Positions 34,236 to 39,533 of a stretch of DNA of 64,000 bases are shown here, in pieces. The notes beneath the pieces were generated by a model that saw only the letters and a list, made by a program, of their open reading frames with translations, ran no database searches and was not told where the DNA came from. A program made the position numbers and the translations under genes. Position 1 is the first letter of the stretch. Each line of letters opens with the position of its first letter. Source of the stretch: Sanguibacter sp. HDW7 (GTDB taxonomy: Bacteria; Actinomycetota; Actinomycetes; Actinomycetales; Cellulomonadaceae); the NCBI RefSeq assembly GCF_011300875.1, contig NZ_CP049862.1, positions 62,001 to 126,000 on the forward strand, in the 5' to 3' direction.

Positions 34236-34344
34236 ACCCGCACGGGTCGCGACCCGCAGCATGCAGCAGGGCGGGCCGGGGAGATCCCCTGCCCGCCCTG
34301 CTGCATGCGGTGCGTACGTCCGACGACGCGTAGCCCTCTCCCGA

Positions 34345-34390
34345 CGGATCGACGCTGACCCCCCATCCGATGGGGGCCAGCGTCAATCCG
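34345..34390. terminator. Palindromic element, family III
   Basis: CGGAT (34345) with ATCCG (to 34390), GACGCTG (34351-34357) with CAGCGTC (34378-34384), and CCCCCATC (34360-34367) with GATGGGGG (34369-34376): 20 bp paired with a single-base loop. Right half matches the element at 10332. It lies between convergent genes. Confidence 0.8.
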
Positions 34391-34416
34391 TGGAGAATGA
34401 GGAACGTCCGGCGGGC

Positions 34417-36633
34417 TCAGCCCAGGTCGACGACGAGGCCGTCTGGCGTCTTGCGGACATTGACCGCCGAGAACACCTTGCCGTCAGGACCGACGAGCGT
34501 GATCGCGTCCTTCGCCGCGCCCGTCGACGTCGCACGGGCGAACGTCAGCTGTCGCAGGAAGCCCTGCGAGTCGAGGGCCTCTGCCGGCGCGACGTACGGC
34601 TCCGGCTCGGCGACGGCGGGTGCGTCGGCGGGGGCGTCGACGGGCTCGAACGACGCCTCGGGTGCGTCGAACGTGGGCGCCGCGACGGGGGCCGACGTGA
34701 TGATCGCGGGCGCGTCGACGGCCGCAGCGTCAGCCTCGACGGGAGCGGGCTCCTGGACGGCCTCCATGAGGATCGTCGGCGCGTCGAGGTCCGGGTCGTC
34801 CGTCGGCTGGGCCGCGAACGCGAACGCCGATACGCGCGTCGGCGCCTCGGCCGCGGGCTCGGCGTCGGGCTCGGCGGCGACCGGCTCGGCGAGCACGGGC
34901 TCGTCGACGGCAGGCTCGAGCGGCGCAGCCATCTCGGGCTGGGCGTCCGTGAGCCAGGCGGGAAGCTCGGCGTCGGTGCTCTCGGCGTCACGGACCTCGG
35001 CGTCGAGGTCGAGCGCGACCGGCTCGTCGCCGTCGAGGCTCGCCCACGGCGACTCGTCGGTCGAGGCGAGCAGCGAGCCGTTGTCCGTGGCGTCCTCGAC
35101 GGGCTCGACCGGCGTCGCGAGCAGCGGCGCGGTCGCGTCGGCGTCGGCGGGCTCCGCCGCGGCGTCGGACCACTCGTCGGTCTCGGCGGCTGCGGGTGCG
35201 CTGAAGCCCCAGTCCGGAGTCGTGATCGGGTTCGCAGGCGGCACGAAGCCGGGCTCCCACGGAGCGAGGCCCTCGGAGGCGGCCTCCTCGGCGACGGCCT
35301 CGGCGGCGACGGCGTCCTCGGCGACGGGCTCGGCTGCGCTGCCGTCCTCGGCGGCGAGGGCCTCATCCTCGGCCGCGACCTCGGCGTCACCCTCGGCCGC
35401 GACCTCGGCGACGTCATCCGCCGCGGGAGCGGCCCAACGGACGGGCTCCGGCGGAGACCACGGCGAGGTGTGGTCGGCAGGCTGGGACCAGTCGTCGCCG
35501 ACGCTCTCCGCGGCCTCACCGACGACGTCGTCGACCACGGGAAGCTCGTCGGAGCCGTCGGCCGTGTCGGCCTCGATGCTCGCGACGGAGGCGAAGTCGA
35601 CCTCCTCGACCGGGACGCCGAGCGGCTCGTCGAGCGGCGTCGGAGCATCCTCGTGGGCCGGGGCCTCGGTGGGGGCCTCGAGCGGGGTGTCCTCAGTGAC
35701 CGCGGCGTCGGTGGGCGCACCCCAGATCGTGTCGGCCGGGACCTCGGTGGCGGCGTCGAGCGGGCTGTCCTCAGTGACCGCGTCCTCGACGGGTGCATCC
35801 TCGTCGGCCGCTTCCTCGACGGGTGCCGCGTCGTCCAGGGCGTCCTCGACAGGGGCGCCCCACGCGGACGGAGTGACGTCGGTGCTCGCCGGCGGGCTCC
35901 ACACGGGAGCAGCCGGGAAGGCGTCGGCGACCGCGAACGGGTCGGCGTCGGCCGGCGCGAGCGGCTCGCTCGGTGCCTCGAAGGAGTCGGCGGGCGTGGC
36001 CTCCGACGTCACGAGCGGCTCCTCCGCGGGGGCGTGCTCCTGCAGCGCCGCGGCCCAGGCGTCGAGCGACCCGGTGTCGGCGTCGGGAGCGTCCTGCGGC
36101 TCCGACGCGGTGAGATCCGCGGCCTCGAACACGTCGGCCACGGGCTCGTCGGACACAGGCTCCTCGGGGATGGAGGACTCGTCGAGCGGGGCTACGTCGG
36201 CAGGGACCGCGTCGAGCGGGGCCTCGTCGAGCGGAGCGTCCGCGACGTAGGCCTCGTCGGCGGGCTCGCCCGGAGCCTGCGCGGCAGCGTCTCCGGAATC
36301 GTCACCGGCGGCGTCGTCGGGCTGGACGAGCGGCTCGCCCCGCTCGGCACGGCCGATGTACGTGTTGAGGGTGTCGATGATCCCGTCGAGCAGGTCGTCG
36401 ACCTCGTCGACGAAGTAGCCCTCCGTGAGCTCCGTCGGGCTGAACCGCGCGGTGAGCAGATCGTTCGGGGTCAGCAGCGGCGTGCCGTCGCTCTCCACGG
36501 TGAGCCCCTGCTCGAGGTGCTCGAGGGTACGGACCGAGCGGGCGAGGAGCTCGTCGACCTCGGTGATCTCGTACCCGGACCGGAACTTGGTCGCGGTGAA
36601 GCGCGCAGAGCGCACATCTGCGGCGGAAAGCAT
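34417..36633 (-). CDS. Large acidic protein with two N-terminal DivIVA-type motifs
   Basis: 738 residues. The first about 95 contain two tandem DivIVA/DivI1A motifs (RFTATKFRSGYEITEVDELL and ARFSPTELTEGYFVDEVDDLL), each followed by a short helix. Residues about 100-680 are an enormous low-complexity region of Ala, Glu, Asp, Pro and Val with scattered PWAS/WAAP-like Trp-Pro motifs, predicted disordered and strongly negative. The last about 60 residues form a small basic-hydrophobic unit (FLRQLTFARATSTGAAKDAITLVG, VFSAVNVRKTPDGLVVDLG in two parts). DivIVA motifs bind curved or polar membranes and recruit partners; here they could anchor a long acidic tether. Follows another DivIVA-repeat gene in the same direction, 96 bp away. 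Confidence 0.8.
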   Translation of the reverse strand: MLSAADVRSARFTATKFRSGYEITEVDELLARSVRTLEHLEQGLTVESDGTPLLTPNDLLTARFSPTELTEGYFVDEVDDLLDGIIDTLNTYIGRAERGEPLVQPDDAAGDDSGDAAAQAPGEPADEAYVADAPLDEAPLDAVPADVAPLDESSIPEEPVSDEPVADVFEAADLTASEPQDAPDADTGSLDAWAAALQEHAPAEEPLVTSEATPADSFEAPSEPLAPADADPFAVADAFPAAPVWSPPASTDVTPSAWGAPVEDALDDAAPVEEAADEDAPVEDAVTEDSPLDAATEVPADTIWGAPTDAAVTEDTPLEAPTEAPAHEDAPTPLDEPLGVPVEEVDFASVASIEADTADGSDELPVVDDVVGEAAESVGDDWSQPADHTSPWSPPEPVRWAAPAADDVAEVAAEGDAEVAAEDEALAAEDGSAAEPVAEDAVAAEAVAEEAASEGLAPWEPGFVPPANPITTPDWGFSAPAAAETDEWSDAAAEPADADATAPLLATPVEPVEDATDNGSLLASTDESPWASLDGDEPVALDLDAEVRDAESTDAELPAWLTDAQPEMAAPLEPAVDEPVLAEPVAAEPDAEPAAEAPTRVSAFAFAAQPTDDPDLDAPTILMEAVQEPAPVEADAAAVDAPAIITSAPVAAPTFDAPEASFEPVDAPADAPAVAEPEPYVAPAEALDSQGFLRQLTFARATSTGAAKDAITLVGPDGKVFSAVNVRKTPDGLVVDLG

Positions 36634-36729
36634 GCGGTGTCCCCTGACGTCGTGGACCGTGTGGTCAAGCGATAGTACCGACGGGAGGCCGTCCCGCGTA
36701 GGACGAGCCAGAGTCGGGTGCGGGTGGAA

Positions 36730-37320
36730 TCAGCCGAGAACGCCCGCGACCTCCTGGAGGAACGCGTCGACCTCGGTCGTCGAGTATCCGGGTCGGAACC
36801 GCACGCGGGGCAGAACCGTCGTCCGGACGCCCACGCCGGTGAGAAGAGGGGTCCCGTCGGGCGTCGTGCTGCGGCGCTGGTCCCGGGCGACGGCGGTCGT
36901 GACGATGTGTGTGACGAGGGTGTCGACCGCCTCGATCTCGTACCCGCCTCCCCAGCCCGACCTGCTGAACCTGACCCGCACGGCGCGCTCGGCGAGCCGC
37001 GCGAACGGGCCACCCTCGCCTGCGACGGCGACGAGGCGCGAGGCCTCGTGCGTGCGTGCACCGAGGAGCATGAGCGTCGCCGTGATCTCGTCGAGGAAGT
37101 CGTCGACCTCGACGATGTCGTAGCCCTCGCGGAACTTCGTCGCGGTGAACCTCTTCTGCTCGACCGCCTCGACGCTCAGCCCCAGCGGTTCGCCGCGTGC
37201 ATGCCGCGTGAGCGCGGCCGTCACCTCGTCGAGGAAGCCGTCGACCTCGACGGGGTCGTAGCCCTCCCGGATCTTCGTCGCGGTGAACCTCTTGCTCTCC
37301 ACGTCCTTGCTCGTCAGCAC
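36730..37320 (-). CDS. Protein of four tandem DivIVA-type motifs
   Basis: 196 residues. Four repeats of the DivI1A pattern: KRFTATKIREGYDPVEVDGFL, KRFTATKFREGYDIVEVDDFL (nearly identical), a diverged VRFSRSGWGGGYEIEAVDTL and a shortened VRFRPGYSTTEVDAFL. The long coiled coil of true DivIVA/Wag31 is missing, so it cannot build filaments in the usual way. GTG 37320 has GAGGAG at the right distance. Probably cotranscribed with the large acidic DivIVA-motif gene. Function unknown; membrane or pole-binding adaptor is the natural guess. Confidence 0.82.
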   Translation of the reverse strand: MLTSKDVESKRFTATKIREGYDPVEVDGFLDEVTAALTRHARGEPLGLSVEAVEQKRFTATKFREGYDIVEVDDFLDEITATLMLLGARTHEASRLVAVAGEGGPFARLAERAVRVRFSRSGWGGGYEIEAVDTLVTHIVTTAVARDQRRSTTPDGTPLLTGVGVRTTVLPRVRFRPGYSTTEVDAFLQEVAGVLG

Positions 37321-37392
37321 GGATCGCTCCTCGGTGTCGTCGTCGGTCCAGGTGGGGCGAGCGTAGCGCCCGCCCCGGACATCGGGAACGAC

Positions 37393-37430
37393 GACGGCGC
37401 CCGACCCCCGGAGAAGGGGCGGGCGCCGTC
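37393..37430 (-). terminator. Strong terminator after the flotillin gene
   Basis: GACGGCGCCCG (37393-37403) with CGGGCGCCGTC (37420-37430), continued after one bulged A by CCCC/GGGG (37405-37408, 37416-37419). It starts 10 bp past the flotillin stop and separates it from the DivIVA-repeat genes. Confidence 0.8.
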
Positions 37431-37439
37431 GGCGGACCG

Positions 37440-38924
37440 TCAGGCGCTGGGGGCAGCGTCCTTCGCGTCGTCCTTCTTCGGGAGCAGCGCACCGCCTGCG
37501 ACGCCACCGATGAGCGACGAGAGGTCGATGCCGAGCAGGTCCTTGACGATCTGCTGGCCCTCGCTGAGGACGCCCGTGATGTTCTTGGTGAGCGCGGACG
37601 CGCCGTCCGTCGAGATGACCGTCATCCTGTCGACCGCGCCCATGGGCTCGGCCGCGGCGCGGATGATCTCGGGCAGACGCGTGATGAGCTCCTGGGCGAG
37701 TGCCGCCTCGCCGTACTTCTTGAGCGCCTCGGCCTTGGCGTCCGTGGCGGCGGCCTCGGCGCGACCCTCGGCCTCGGTCGCGGCCGCGCGGGCCTCACCC
37801 TCGGCGCGGATACCGGCGGCGAGCGCGACCTGCCGGTCACGCTCACCCTCACCGGCGCGGCGGACGGCCTCGGCAGCTGCCTCAGCGTCCTGGATCGCGG
37901 CGGTCTTGTTGGCCTGGGCGATCGTCGTGCGCTTGAAGGCGTCGGCCTCGGTCGCGGCGTTCGCGGCGTCACGCTCGGCGTTGGCCTTCTGGACGGCGGC
38001 GTACGCGTCGGCCTCGGCGGGCTTGCGGACGGAGATGTCGAGCTCCTCCTCCGTCACCTTGGCCTGCTCGGTGAGGGCCTCGCGCTGCTCGAGGGCGACG
38101 AGGCGCTCCTGCTCGACGCGCGCGAGCTGGCCCGCTGCGTCGGCCTCGGCGTTGGCGCGGTCGGTCTCCGCCTTGATCGTCGCCTTCTTGAGGTCGAGCG
38201 CCTTCTGGCGCTCGGCGATCTGCTCGGCTGCGTCGATGACGGCGAACTCGGCGATCCGGCGGGCCTCGGCCTCCGAGACCTCGGCGACCTGGCGGGCGCG
38301 CGCGTTCTCGGCACGACCGAGGTTCGCGAGGTAGTCGGAGCCCGGCGTCGAGATGTCGGAGATGTTGAGGAGGTCGACCTGGAGGCCCTGCTCGGCGAGG
38401 TCCGTCTTCGTCGAGTCGACGACCCGGTCGGAGAGGCCCTTGCGGTCCGAGATGATCTGCTCGATCGTCATGTCTCCGACGATCGACCGGAGCGAGCCCT
38501 CGAGGGACTCCTTGATGATCTCGGTGAGCGCGTCCTGCTGGGAGAGGAAGCGCTGGGCGGCCCGGCGCACGCCGTCGTCGTCGCCGCGGACCTTGAAGTT
38601 GATGGACGCCTTGATGGCGATCTTCACGCGGTTCTTGTCGACGCCCTCGACGGTGATGCCGATCTGGCGCTGCTCGAGCGAGATCGGGAAGCCCTGCTGG
38701 AGGATCGGCCACACGAAGACGCGGCCACCGACGACGACGCGCTGGCCCCCGATCATGTCCGGCTGGTTCTTGCCCGCGCCGCGGCCGACGATGACGAGAG
38801 CCTCGTTCGGCGGGACACGCCGGATGCGCTTGGCGATGAACGTGACGATCGCGAGGAACGCGATCGCGAGGAGCGCGACCCCGACGACTGTCCAGAAGTT
38901 CGGGTCGGTGCTGCTGGGGGGCAT
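37440..38924 (-). CDS. Flotillin-like SPFH-domain membrane scaffold protein
   Basis: 494 residues. One N-terminal membrane helix (FWTVVGVALLAIAFLAIVTFIA), an SPFH/band-7 domain (about 35-230: RVPPNEALVIVGRGAG, ILQQGFPISLEQRQIGITVEGVDKNRVKI in parts), then a long Ala/Glu/Lys-rich coiled coil with AEA/EAR repeats (about 230-420) and a hydrophobic C-terminal LLGIDLSSLIGGVAGG. Bacterial flotillins (FloT/YuaG type) organise membrane microdomains. RBS GGAAGGA. Preceded by an NfeD-like gene (132-bp gap), the usual partner of SPFH proteins. Confidence 0.92.
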   Translation of the reverse strand: MPPSSTDPNFWTVVGVALLAIAFLAIVTFIAKRIRRVPPNEALVIVGRGAGKNQPDMIGGQRVVVGGRVFVWPILQQGFPISLEQRQIGITVEGVDKNRVKIAIKASINFKVRGDDDGVRRAAQRFLSQQDALTEIIKESLEGSLRSIVGDMTIEQIISDRKGLSDRVVDSTKTDLAEQGLQVDLLNISDISTPGSDYLANLGRAENARARQVAEVSEAEARRIAEFAVIDAAEQIAERQKALDLKKATIKAETDRANAEADAAGQLARVEQERLVALEQREALTEQAKVTEEELDISVRKPAEADAYAAVQKANAERDAANAATEADAFKRTTIAQANKTAAIQDAEAAAEAVRRAGEGERDRQVALAAGIRAEGEARAAATEAEGRAEAAATDAKAEALKKYGEAALAQELITRLPEIIRAAAEPMGAVDRMTVISTDGASALTKNITGVLSEGQQIVKDLLGIDLSSLIGGVAGGALLPKKDDAKDAAPSA

Positions 38925-39056: not shown

Positions 39057-39533
39057 TCAGGCGGTGGGTGCGCCGTCGCCCGGGGCGACCTTGACGCGGG
39101 AGCCCTCCTGGGCGACGACGACGATGCGCGAGCCCTCGGCGATCGGGGCGTCCGACCAGGCCATGCGGCGTTCGATCTCCTGCGGGGTGTCGAGGAAGAC
39201 CTCCCCGCGCTGCGTGGTGATGTCCGACTTCGCGACGCCCGTCATGCCGACGAGCTTGAGCGGCTGGCCGTCCTCGGTCGCCTGGAGGCGCTTGATCGCG
39301 AGCTGCGAGAGCCATACGGCGGCGATGCCGGCGACGGCGGAACCGCCGTAGACGAGTCCCGTGGGCAGGTCGTTCGCGGTCGTCATGATGCCGATCGCGC
39401 CGAAGACGATCGCGCCGACGCCGAGGCCGGTGCTCGACAGCGCGCCGTCGCCGAGCTCGATGAACTCGCCGAGCAGCATCGAGCCGATGACGAGCAGCAG
39501 CCCGACGACGCCGATGATGACGAAGACCGTCAT
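39057..39533 (-). CDS. NfeD-like membrane protein with C-terminal OB fold
   Basis: 158 residues: a first helix VFVIIGVVGLLLVIGSMLLG, two further helices (GALSSTGLGVGAIVFGAIGIM, GLVYGGSAVAGIAAVWLSQL), then a soluble beta-barrel-like domain (KLVGMTGVAKSDI, RGEVFLDTPQEIERRMAWSD, GSRIVVVAQEGSRVKVAPG) as in short NfeD proteins that pair with flotillins. ATG 39533 with a GAGGAAC RBS; the longer upstream reading is a shadow. Likely cotranscribed with the flotillin gene downstream. Confidence 0.85.
   Translation of the reverse strand: MTVFVIIGVVGLLLVIGSMLLGEFIELGDGALSSTGLGVGAIVFGAIGIMTTANDLPTGLVYGGSAVAGIAAVWLSQLAIKRLQATEDGQPLKLVGMTGVAKSDITTQRGEVFLDTPQEIERRMAWSDAPIAEGSRIVVVAQEGSRVKVAPGDGAPTA

Follow-up and report, generated by a model that had tools for sequence, protein, structure and literature searches.

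DivIVA and Wag31 consist of one DivI1A motif followed by a long coiled coil, and the locus described here raises the question of what several such motifs can form in a chain that lacks this coiled coil. The locus comprises two adjacent genes, P0001 and P0002, in a stretch of 64,000 nucleotides from Sanguibacter sp. HDW7 (contig NZ_CP049862.1, positions 62,001 to 126,000 of the forward strand); this whole stretch is termed the window. We found P0001 and P0002 to be proteins of the PolyDIV type, and it is probable that their paired motifs form heads within a single chain, two in P0001 and one in P0002, the latter tethered via a linker to a small C-terminal unit. The two genes and their parts are located as follows:

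36730..37320, minus strand: P0001, 196 amino acids, GTG start, four DivI1A motifs in two pairs (residues 2-37 and 48-83; 109-142 and 160-195)
37057..37317, minus strand: first motif pair of P0001, predicted single-chain head 1, from the pair alignment and motif positions, with Tyr/Asp/Asp docking residues in both motifs
36736..36996, minus strand: second, diverged motif pair of P0001, predicted single-chain head 2 (residues 109-142 and 160-195; GYEIEAVD and GYSTTEVD)
34417..36633, minus strand: P0002, 738 amino acids, ATG start, with a motif pair, a long acidic linker predicted to be disordered, and a C-terminal unit
36361..36630, minus strand: N-terminal motif pair of P0002, motifs at residues 2-37 and 54-89, in a block with a predicted local distance difference test score (pLDDT) of 83-96
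34606..36366, minus strand: acidic linker of P0002, rich in Ala, Pro, Asp and Glu, 587 amino acids, net charge -0.25 per residue, pLDDT mostly below 50
34420..34605, minus strand: conserved C-terminal unit of P0002, helix and beta strands, from profile A1 matches in relatives and AlphaFold2

Motif content and relation to known families

The DivI1A model TIGR03544 matched P0001 in four stretches (E 1.3e-32) and P0002 in two (E 1.1e-14), in both cases above the curated cut-off and far beyond chance. This is in agreement with the motif counts given in an earlier note on this DNA, hereafter the original prediction. The same note held two motifs of P0001 to be near-identical and two to be decayed; motifs 1 and 2 are only similar, with 26 of 36 residues identical, whereas motifs 3 and 4 are indeed diverged and retain GY....VD. 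It was also right that a long coiled coil of the DivIVA type is absent from both proteins, which with four and two motifs, respectively, do not have the composition of DivIVA or Wag31. The strict pattern GY[DN]xx[QE]V[DN]xx[ILV]xx[ILV], by which PolyDIV clusters were selected in PMC9858780, was found in two of the four P0001 motifs and in neither P0002 motif; relatives such as L169 read GYDQDEVDRFLDRV.

P0001 resembles the family TIGR03543 (DivIVA domain repeat protein) in having four motifs within about 180-195 amino acids, and it aligns along the length of the model. However, it was rejected as a member, since it scored 64.2 against a cut-off of 154.2 (P0002 scored 18.1). The four proteins tested for membership that passed this cut-off, out of four, were L007, L058, L059 and, from another genome, L063; L007:1060-1623 is the genuine member encoded by the Sanguibacter sp. 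HDW7 genome itself (193.7 bits). The two proteins resemble GpsB in head fold and in the Tyr/Asp/Asp residues for peptide docking, whereas GpsB has one motif and is hexameric (PMC6335420), and both P0001 (39 bits) and P0002 (16 bits) fell under the GpsB cut-off of 91. The head motif, loop and helix are also those of DivIVA and Wag31, and the P0001 model matches 2wuj, 2wuk and 6lfa. The score of P0001 with the Wag31 model NF050102 (22.1 bits) is not decisive, as the cut-off of 260 is missed even by L002, a Wag31-like single-motif protein of the same genome (112.8 bits).

Repeated DivIVA motifs are not without precedent, since such proteins are already described both as PolyDIV (PMC9858780, PLoS One 2023) and by TIGR03543. 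According to the main text of the PolyDIV paper, the number of domains is invariably even, the connectors are shorter within pairs, and AlphaFold predicts single-chain heads. PolyDIV proteins are there reported to be widespread in Actinobacteria, Micrococcales included, with a role in cell division that is proposed but not shown; a Ser/Thr kinase is the sole added folded domain, and UMP kinase is the usual neighbour. With at least two DivIVA-like domains per chain, in even number (four in P0001, two in P0002) and arranged in pairs, both proteins are of the PolyDIV type. They differ from that description in the small C-terminal unit that P0002 carries on a long linker, and in a locus away from UMP kinase, which is a usual and not a defining neighbour. 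The double histone fold (PMC13088155) offers a parallel, as a dimerising fold there occurs twice in the chain and yields a pseudodimer, although fold and function are unrelated.

Pairing of the motifs and the predicted head

From relatives and further genomes of Actinomycetota we gathered multi-motif proteins, keeping proteins with one hit above 12 bits and a total of at least 25, counting hits above 3 bits, and merging copies that were near-identical from the last motif onward. Of 77 distinct proteins, 15 had one motif, 43 had two and 19 had four. No odd number above one was observed, and the count was even in all multi-motif proteins (62/62). In the four-motif proteins the middle spacing was the longest in 18 of 19 cases and tied in the remaining one. 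The motif starts of P0001 are 46, 58 and 53 residues apart, that is, with shorter connectors inside the pairs; this comparison is not applicable to the one pair of P0002. Start spacing inside pairs was 37-64 residues over the set (L198, whose motifs start 42 apart, gave 29 because of an offset in the alignment), and pair starts were 152 and 289 residues apart in L061 and L188. The rule of even numbers and pairing was reached independently here, but it is already published (PMC9858780) and is not new.

In L061, L188 and L201/L202 the two motif pairs are separated by a long insert. L201 and L202 sit on the ends of two contigs from the same genome, possibly as a single gene. Like L200 they are truncated by the contig end and may belong to longer proteins.

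Single-motif and multi-motif proteins also differed in what follows the motif. The median proportion of Pro and Gly in the next 30 residues was 0.10 in single-motif proteins (n = 15; L211, at 0.40, is one of the exceptions), which mostly run on into a helix-prone stretch. After the last motif of the 38 multi-motif proteins with sufficient tail it was 0.23, the other 24 of the 62 having too short a tail (Mann-Whitney p 1e-4, a value that overstates independence as the sequences are related). Judged by eye, seven proteins (L195, L197, L199, L204, L209, L212, and L213) appear to be of a membrane-anchored type, with a single DivI1A motif after a transmembrane-like N-terminal stretch and a short coil-like tail.

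The heads of DivIVA, GpsB and Wag31 are intertwined dimers (PMC7340271). Since these heads are dimeric and the motifs studied here are paired, two motifs of a chain probably make up one head, so that P0001 is probably two-headed and P0002 single-headed. The original prediction held that multi-motif versions could bind curved membrane with several heads; with one motif amounting to half a head, probably P0001 alone would have more than one. Two consecutive motifs of one chain would thus fold together into a ready-made head, and a head formed inside one chain would not need a coiled coil for dimerisation. P0001, with two heads in one small protein, could bridge two sites.

Alternatively, the motifs may pair between chains, with another copy of the same protein, between P0001 and P0002, or with a Wag31-like protein, and give cross-linked polymers or a network. 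That the known DivIVA-type heads are dimers between chains would agree with this, as would the presence of L002 in the same genome and two of nine published PolyDIV homodimer models in which intra- and inter-chain heads are mixed (PMC9858780). The other seven models keep the single-chain topology and thereby back an intrachain fold for PolyDIV generally. The even counts, the short spacing within pairs, and long inserts that are found between pairs but not inside them also argue against pairing between chains, which we find unlikely.

Structure prediction and profile comparison are consistent with DivIVA-type heads. The AlphaFold2 model of P0001 had a mean pLDDT of 86.9 and a predicted template modelling score (pTM) of 0.54, and in P0002 residues 1-100 formed the block noted above. 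When the P0001 model was compared with known structures by VIA-align, head chains of DivIVA, GpsB and Wag31 came out on top for residues 42-106, a region that includes motif 2 (Z 4.6-5.3), among them DivIVA 2wuk (Z 5.3, root-mean-square deviation 1.8 Å over 55 residues) and 2wuj (Z 4.6, 1.7 Å over 50 residues). When the PDB was searched with a profile of the motif pair (A5), all matches at E 0.01 were head chains of Wag31, GpsB and DivIVA, with E values from 4e-5 to 8e-3. L048, L050, L051 and L052 are not in this alignment; the gene of L048 is represented in it as L151.

Residues with a known function in the heads were largely conserved among 18 aligned pairs. The hydrophobic residue of the loop was kept in 18/18 first and 17/18 second motifs, and the loop Arg in 16/18 and 15/18; these positions bind lipid (PMC7340271, PMC8348161). 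The positions that bind penicillin-binding protein peptides in GpsB (PMC6335420) were conserved as well, Tyr in 17/18 first and 18/18 second motifs, the first Asp in 18/18 of each, and the second Asp in 13/18 and 17/18. From these residues, a polar or membrane location of P0001 and P0002 is plausible. The head may dock on the membrane through the hydrophobic residue and Arg of the loop, on the Arg-rich tails of membrane proteins in the cytoplasm through a Tyr/Asp/Asp groove as in GpsB, or on both, and the location may be septal.

Several observations weigh against single-chain heads in P0001 and P0002. The counted proteins also served to train the motif profile, and most had been found by pair-type queries, which may favour even counts; the sequences are, moreover, related to one another. 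In the structural comparison, unrelated helical chains (2luh, 4txp, 3nwi) reached Z 4.6-4.7, less than 1 below the top match of P0001. That match covers motif 2, with no separate match for motif 1, and the match of the P0002 head was poor (best Z 4.3, 3.6 Å). Foldseek found no match at E 0.001 with either model, so that the structural likeness to DivIVA-type heads rests on VIA-align. The pTM of P0001 is moderate, and the packing of motif 1 on motif 2 is an inference. P0002 deviates from the consensus by an Ala in place of the second Asp in motif 1 and by Leu-Thr in place of Phe-Arg in motif 2. Finally, the gene neighbours differ between genera.

The linker and C-terminal unit of P0002

The division of P0002 into two motifs, about 580 disordered acidic residues and a small C-terminal unit was borne out by AlphaFold2 confidence and by composition. 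Residues 107-686 had pLDDT values mostly below 50, and the 587-residue linker contains 25% Asp and Glu but only 1% Lys and Arg. In the C-terminal unit a helix at residues 689-701 was predicted with a pLDDT of about 60 and strands at 712-737 with about 78-81.

The C-terminal unit was searched for with profile A1 (the last ~60 residues) in 221 genomes of the window's family, by which we mean f1 of the genome set, Oerskovia-type genomes included (in the NCBI taxonomy, Sanguibacter belongs to Sanguibacteraceae and Oerskovia to Cellulomonadaceae). It was found in 48 of the 221 genomes at E 0.01. For 35 of these, from 8 of 25 genera, the match reached E 0.001 or better; the top 30 were read as loci and four more as wider regions, with G081 unread. 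The 13 genomes with E 0.0015-0.0096 were counted by score alone. The table of linkers has 35 rows (at least two genes are counted twice) in which the C-terminal unit follows the motif pair in frame; alignment A4 comprises 20 rows of the 34 C-terminal stretches found. Exceptions to this arrangement were L147-L149, where the loci are cut short, L163/L057 with a degenerate pair only and one weak hit, L177, a weak match outside the window's family, and L156 (G184). In L156 a single stretch has the motif pair in one frame and the C-terminal unit in another, suggesting a frameshift or a sequencing error. Adjacent pairs of genes of this type were seen in L158, L160, L161, L164 and L047, with one gene more diverged in L158-L164.

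Whereas both ends are kept, the linker varies from 7 to 587 residues over the 35 rows and is only 7-37 residues long in 15 of them. Among linkers of at least 40 residues, clear acidity was found only in the genus of the window: net charge per residue was -0.16 to -0.19 in L044-L046 and -0.17 over 137 amino acids in one L047 gene, as opposed to -0.04 to +0.07 outside the genus. The original prediction had seen in the long acidic chain a possible condensate. In such a scheme P0002 would be a condensate or client-exclusion scaffold, its head anchoring the chain for phase separation or as a brush, which would fit the length and charge of its own linker and the acidity of long linkers in the same genus. 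The short linkers and the near-neutral ones outside the genus mean that the family as a whole needs no condensate. The acidic tail itself thus stands, but an acidic condensate as a conserved function is weakened by this plasticity, and we regard the scaffold as improbable even for P0002.

If P0002 has a single-chain head, its disordered linker of variable length may instead serve as a tether, and the small conserved C-terminal unit could catch a second partner on a flexible leash. P0002 may even stand for tethered adaptors that form a family of their own, known to date from the window's family of Micrococcales only, in which a single-chain head and an elastic linker of 7-587 residues would be joined to a new, small C-terminal binding module that recruits a specific envelope or division partner, the reach being set by linker length; we put this forward tentatively, at less than an even chance. 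Pfam gave no identity for the C-terminal unit, none of its families matching more than a single one of the 20 members, and a profile search of the PDB gave weak, mutually unrelated hits only (best E 0.013). An order-wide search found the unit at E 0.001 in 7 of 396 genomes, four of them weak (L176-L179) and without an in-frame DivI1A motif; as it scored 16 candidates per genome and missed G022, a match of the family search, it cannot establish absence outside the family.

The three-part architecture of P0002 was not found in the open-access literature searched or in the main text of PMC9858780, whose supplementary cluster map, outside that scope, may contain these sequences. It may therefore be a new variant. 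With one head and a conserved C-terminal unit, P0002 is a small, tractable case in which head, linker and tail are separable, and its tail could serve as bait for a PolyDIV partner.

Locus and genome context

The source genome is a single contig of 3.35 Mb and 99.99% complete. TIGR03544 gave 11 matches in it, eight of them above the cut-off; P0001, P0002, L002 and L007 are among the matches. The gene of L007 lies ~2.7 kb from UMP kinase (pyrH at 1.290 Mb), and 10 of the 11 genomes checked have an L007-type gene at a distance of 1.8-3.3 kb from UMP kinase, none being listed for G004. L007, L058 and L059, which passed the TIGR03543 cut-off, are among these genes. The P0001/P0002 locus at 0.096-0.099 Mb is ~1.19 Mb from pyrH, and with the canonical PolyDIV gene elsewhere it constitutes the second PolyDIV locus of the genome.

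Both genes show a strong coding bias, with a guanine plus cytosine content at third codon positions of 0.92 (P0001) and 0.91 (P0002). The nearest relative, G004, encodes both proteins (74% and 64% identical, respectively). P0001 and P0002 might nevertheless be spare paralogues of the canonical gene, drifting and with little function. A close counterpart of P0001 was found in G004 only, among five genomes of the genus searched, while G001, G002, G003 and G005 match most of P0001 at 28-31% only, through genes near UMP kinase; the divergence of motifs 3 and 4 would also fit. P0002-type genes, however, occur in 8 of the family's 25 genera (E 0.001 or better), and wherever they were read both ends proved conserved; this speaks against drift and makes the explanation very doubtful.

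The gene order on the minus strand is NfeD-like, flotillin, P0001 and P0002, and P0002 is convergent with a DUF5692 gene. The flanking features are:

37440..38924, minus strand: flotillin (Band_7 and Flot by Pfam), upstream neighbour, near a motif-pair gene in a subset of relatives only
39057..39524, minus strand, start approximate: NfeD-like gene upstream of flotillin (Pfam NfeD E 0.0038, under the gathering score), conserved with flotillin
37372..37443, minus strand: strong hairpin between the stop of flotillin and the start of P0001, terminator-like without a T run (-46.3 kcal/mol, z -3.0)
34330..34425, no strand assigned: very strong hairpin with a 20-pair stem at the P0002 end, between the convergent P0002 and DUF5692 genes (-59.8 kcal/mol, z -6.2)

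The hairpin at 37372..37443 was absent from the listing of the terminator scan. The one at 34330..34425 is perhaps a two-way terminator.

NfeD-flotillin genes were found beside a motif-pair gene, or within ~2.5 kb of one, in the source genome and 10 others (G002, G004, G005, G024, G190, G220, G221, G223, Oerskovia rustica and Sanguibacter inulinus); several L numbers in this count belong to the same genome. Such proximity would be expected if P0001 and P0002 acted with flotillin and NfeD as an adaptor of membrane microdomains. Against this, a motif-pair gene was present in the flanks of just 5 of 80 flotillin loci, a lower bound as some flanks are short (e.g. L064, L092, L123). Conversely, NfeD-flotillin was near 5 of 20 motif-pair loci; the flanks fetched for the other 15 did not contain it, nor did the 12 kb fetched in G001 and G003 of the same genus. 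With this sparse co-occurrence and the strong hairpin between flotillin and P0001, a shared operon is not established. A flotillin operon was rejected as a general explanation on the 5/80 count, and the microdomain adaptor appears quite unlikely. Five loci (L224-L227 and L229) have neighbours in common, flotillin not included.

The flotillins of two records titled Planococcus sp. (L084) and Sphaerisporangium cinnabarinum (L113) were 76% and 80% identical to the query, as close as those of Microbacterium and Cellulosimicrobium, and these assemblies are perhaps mislabelled.

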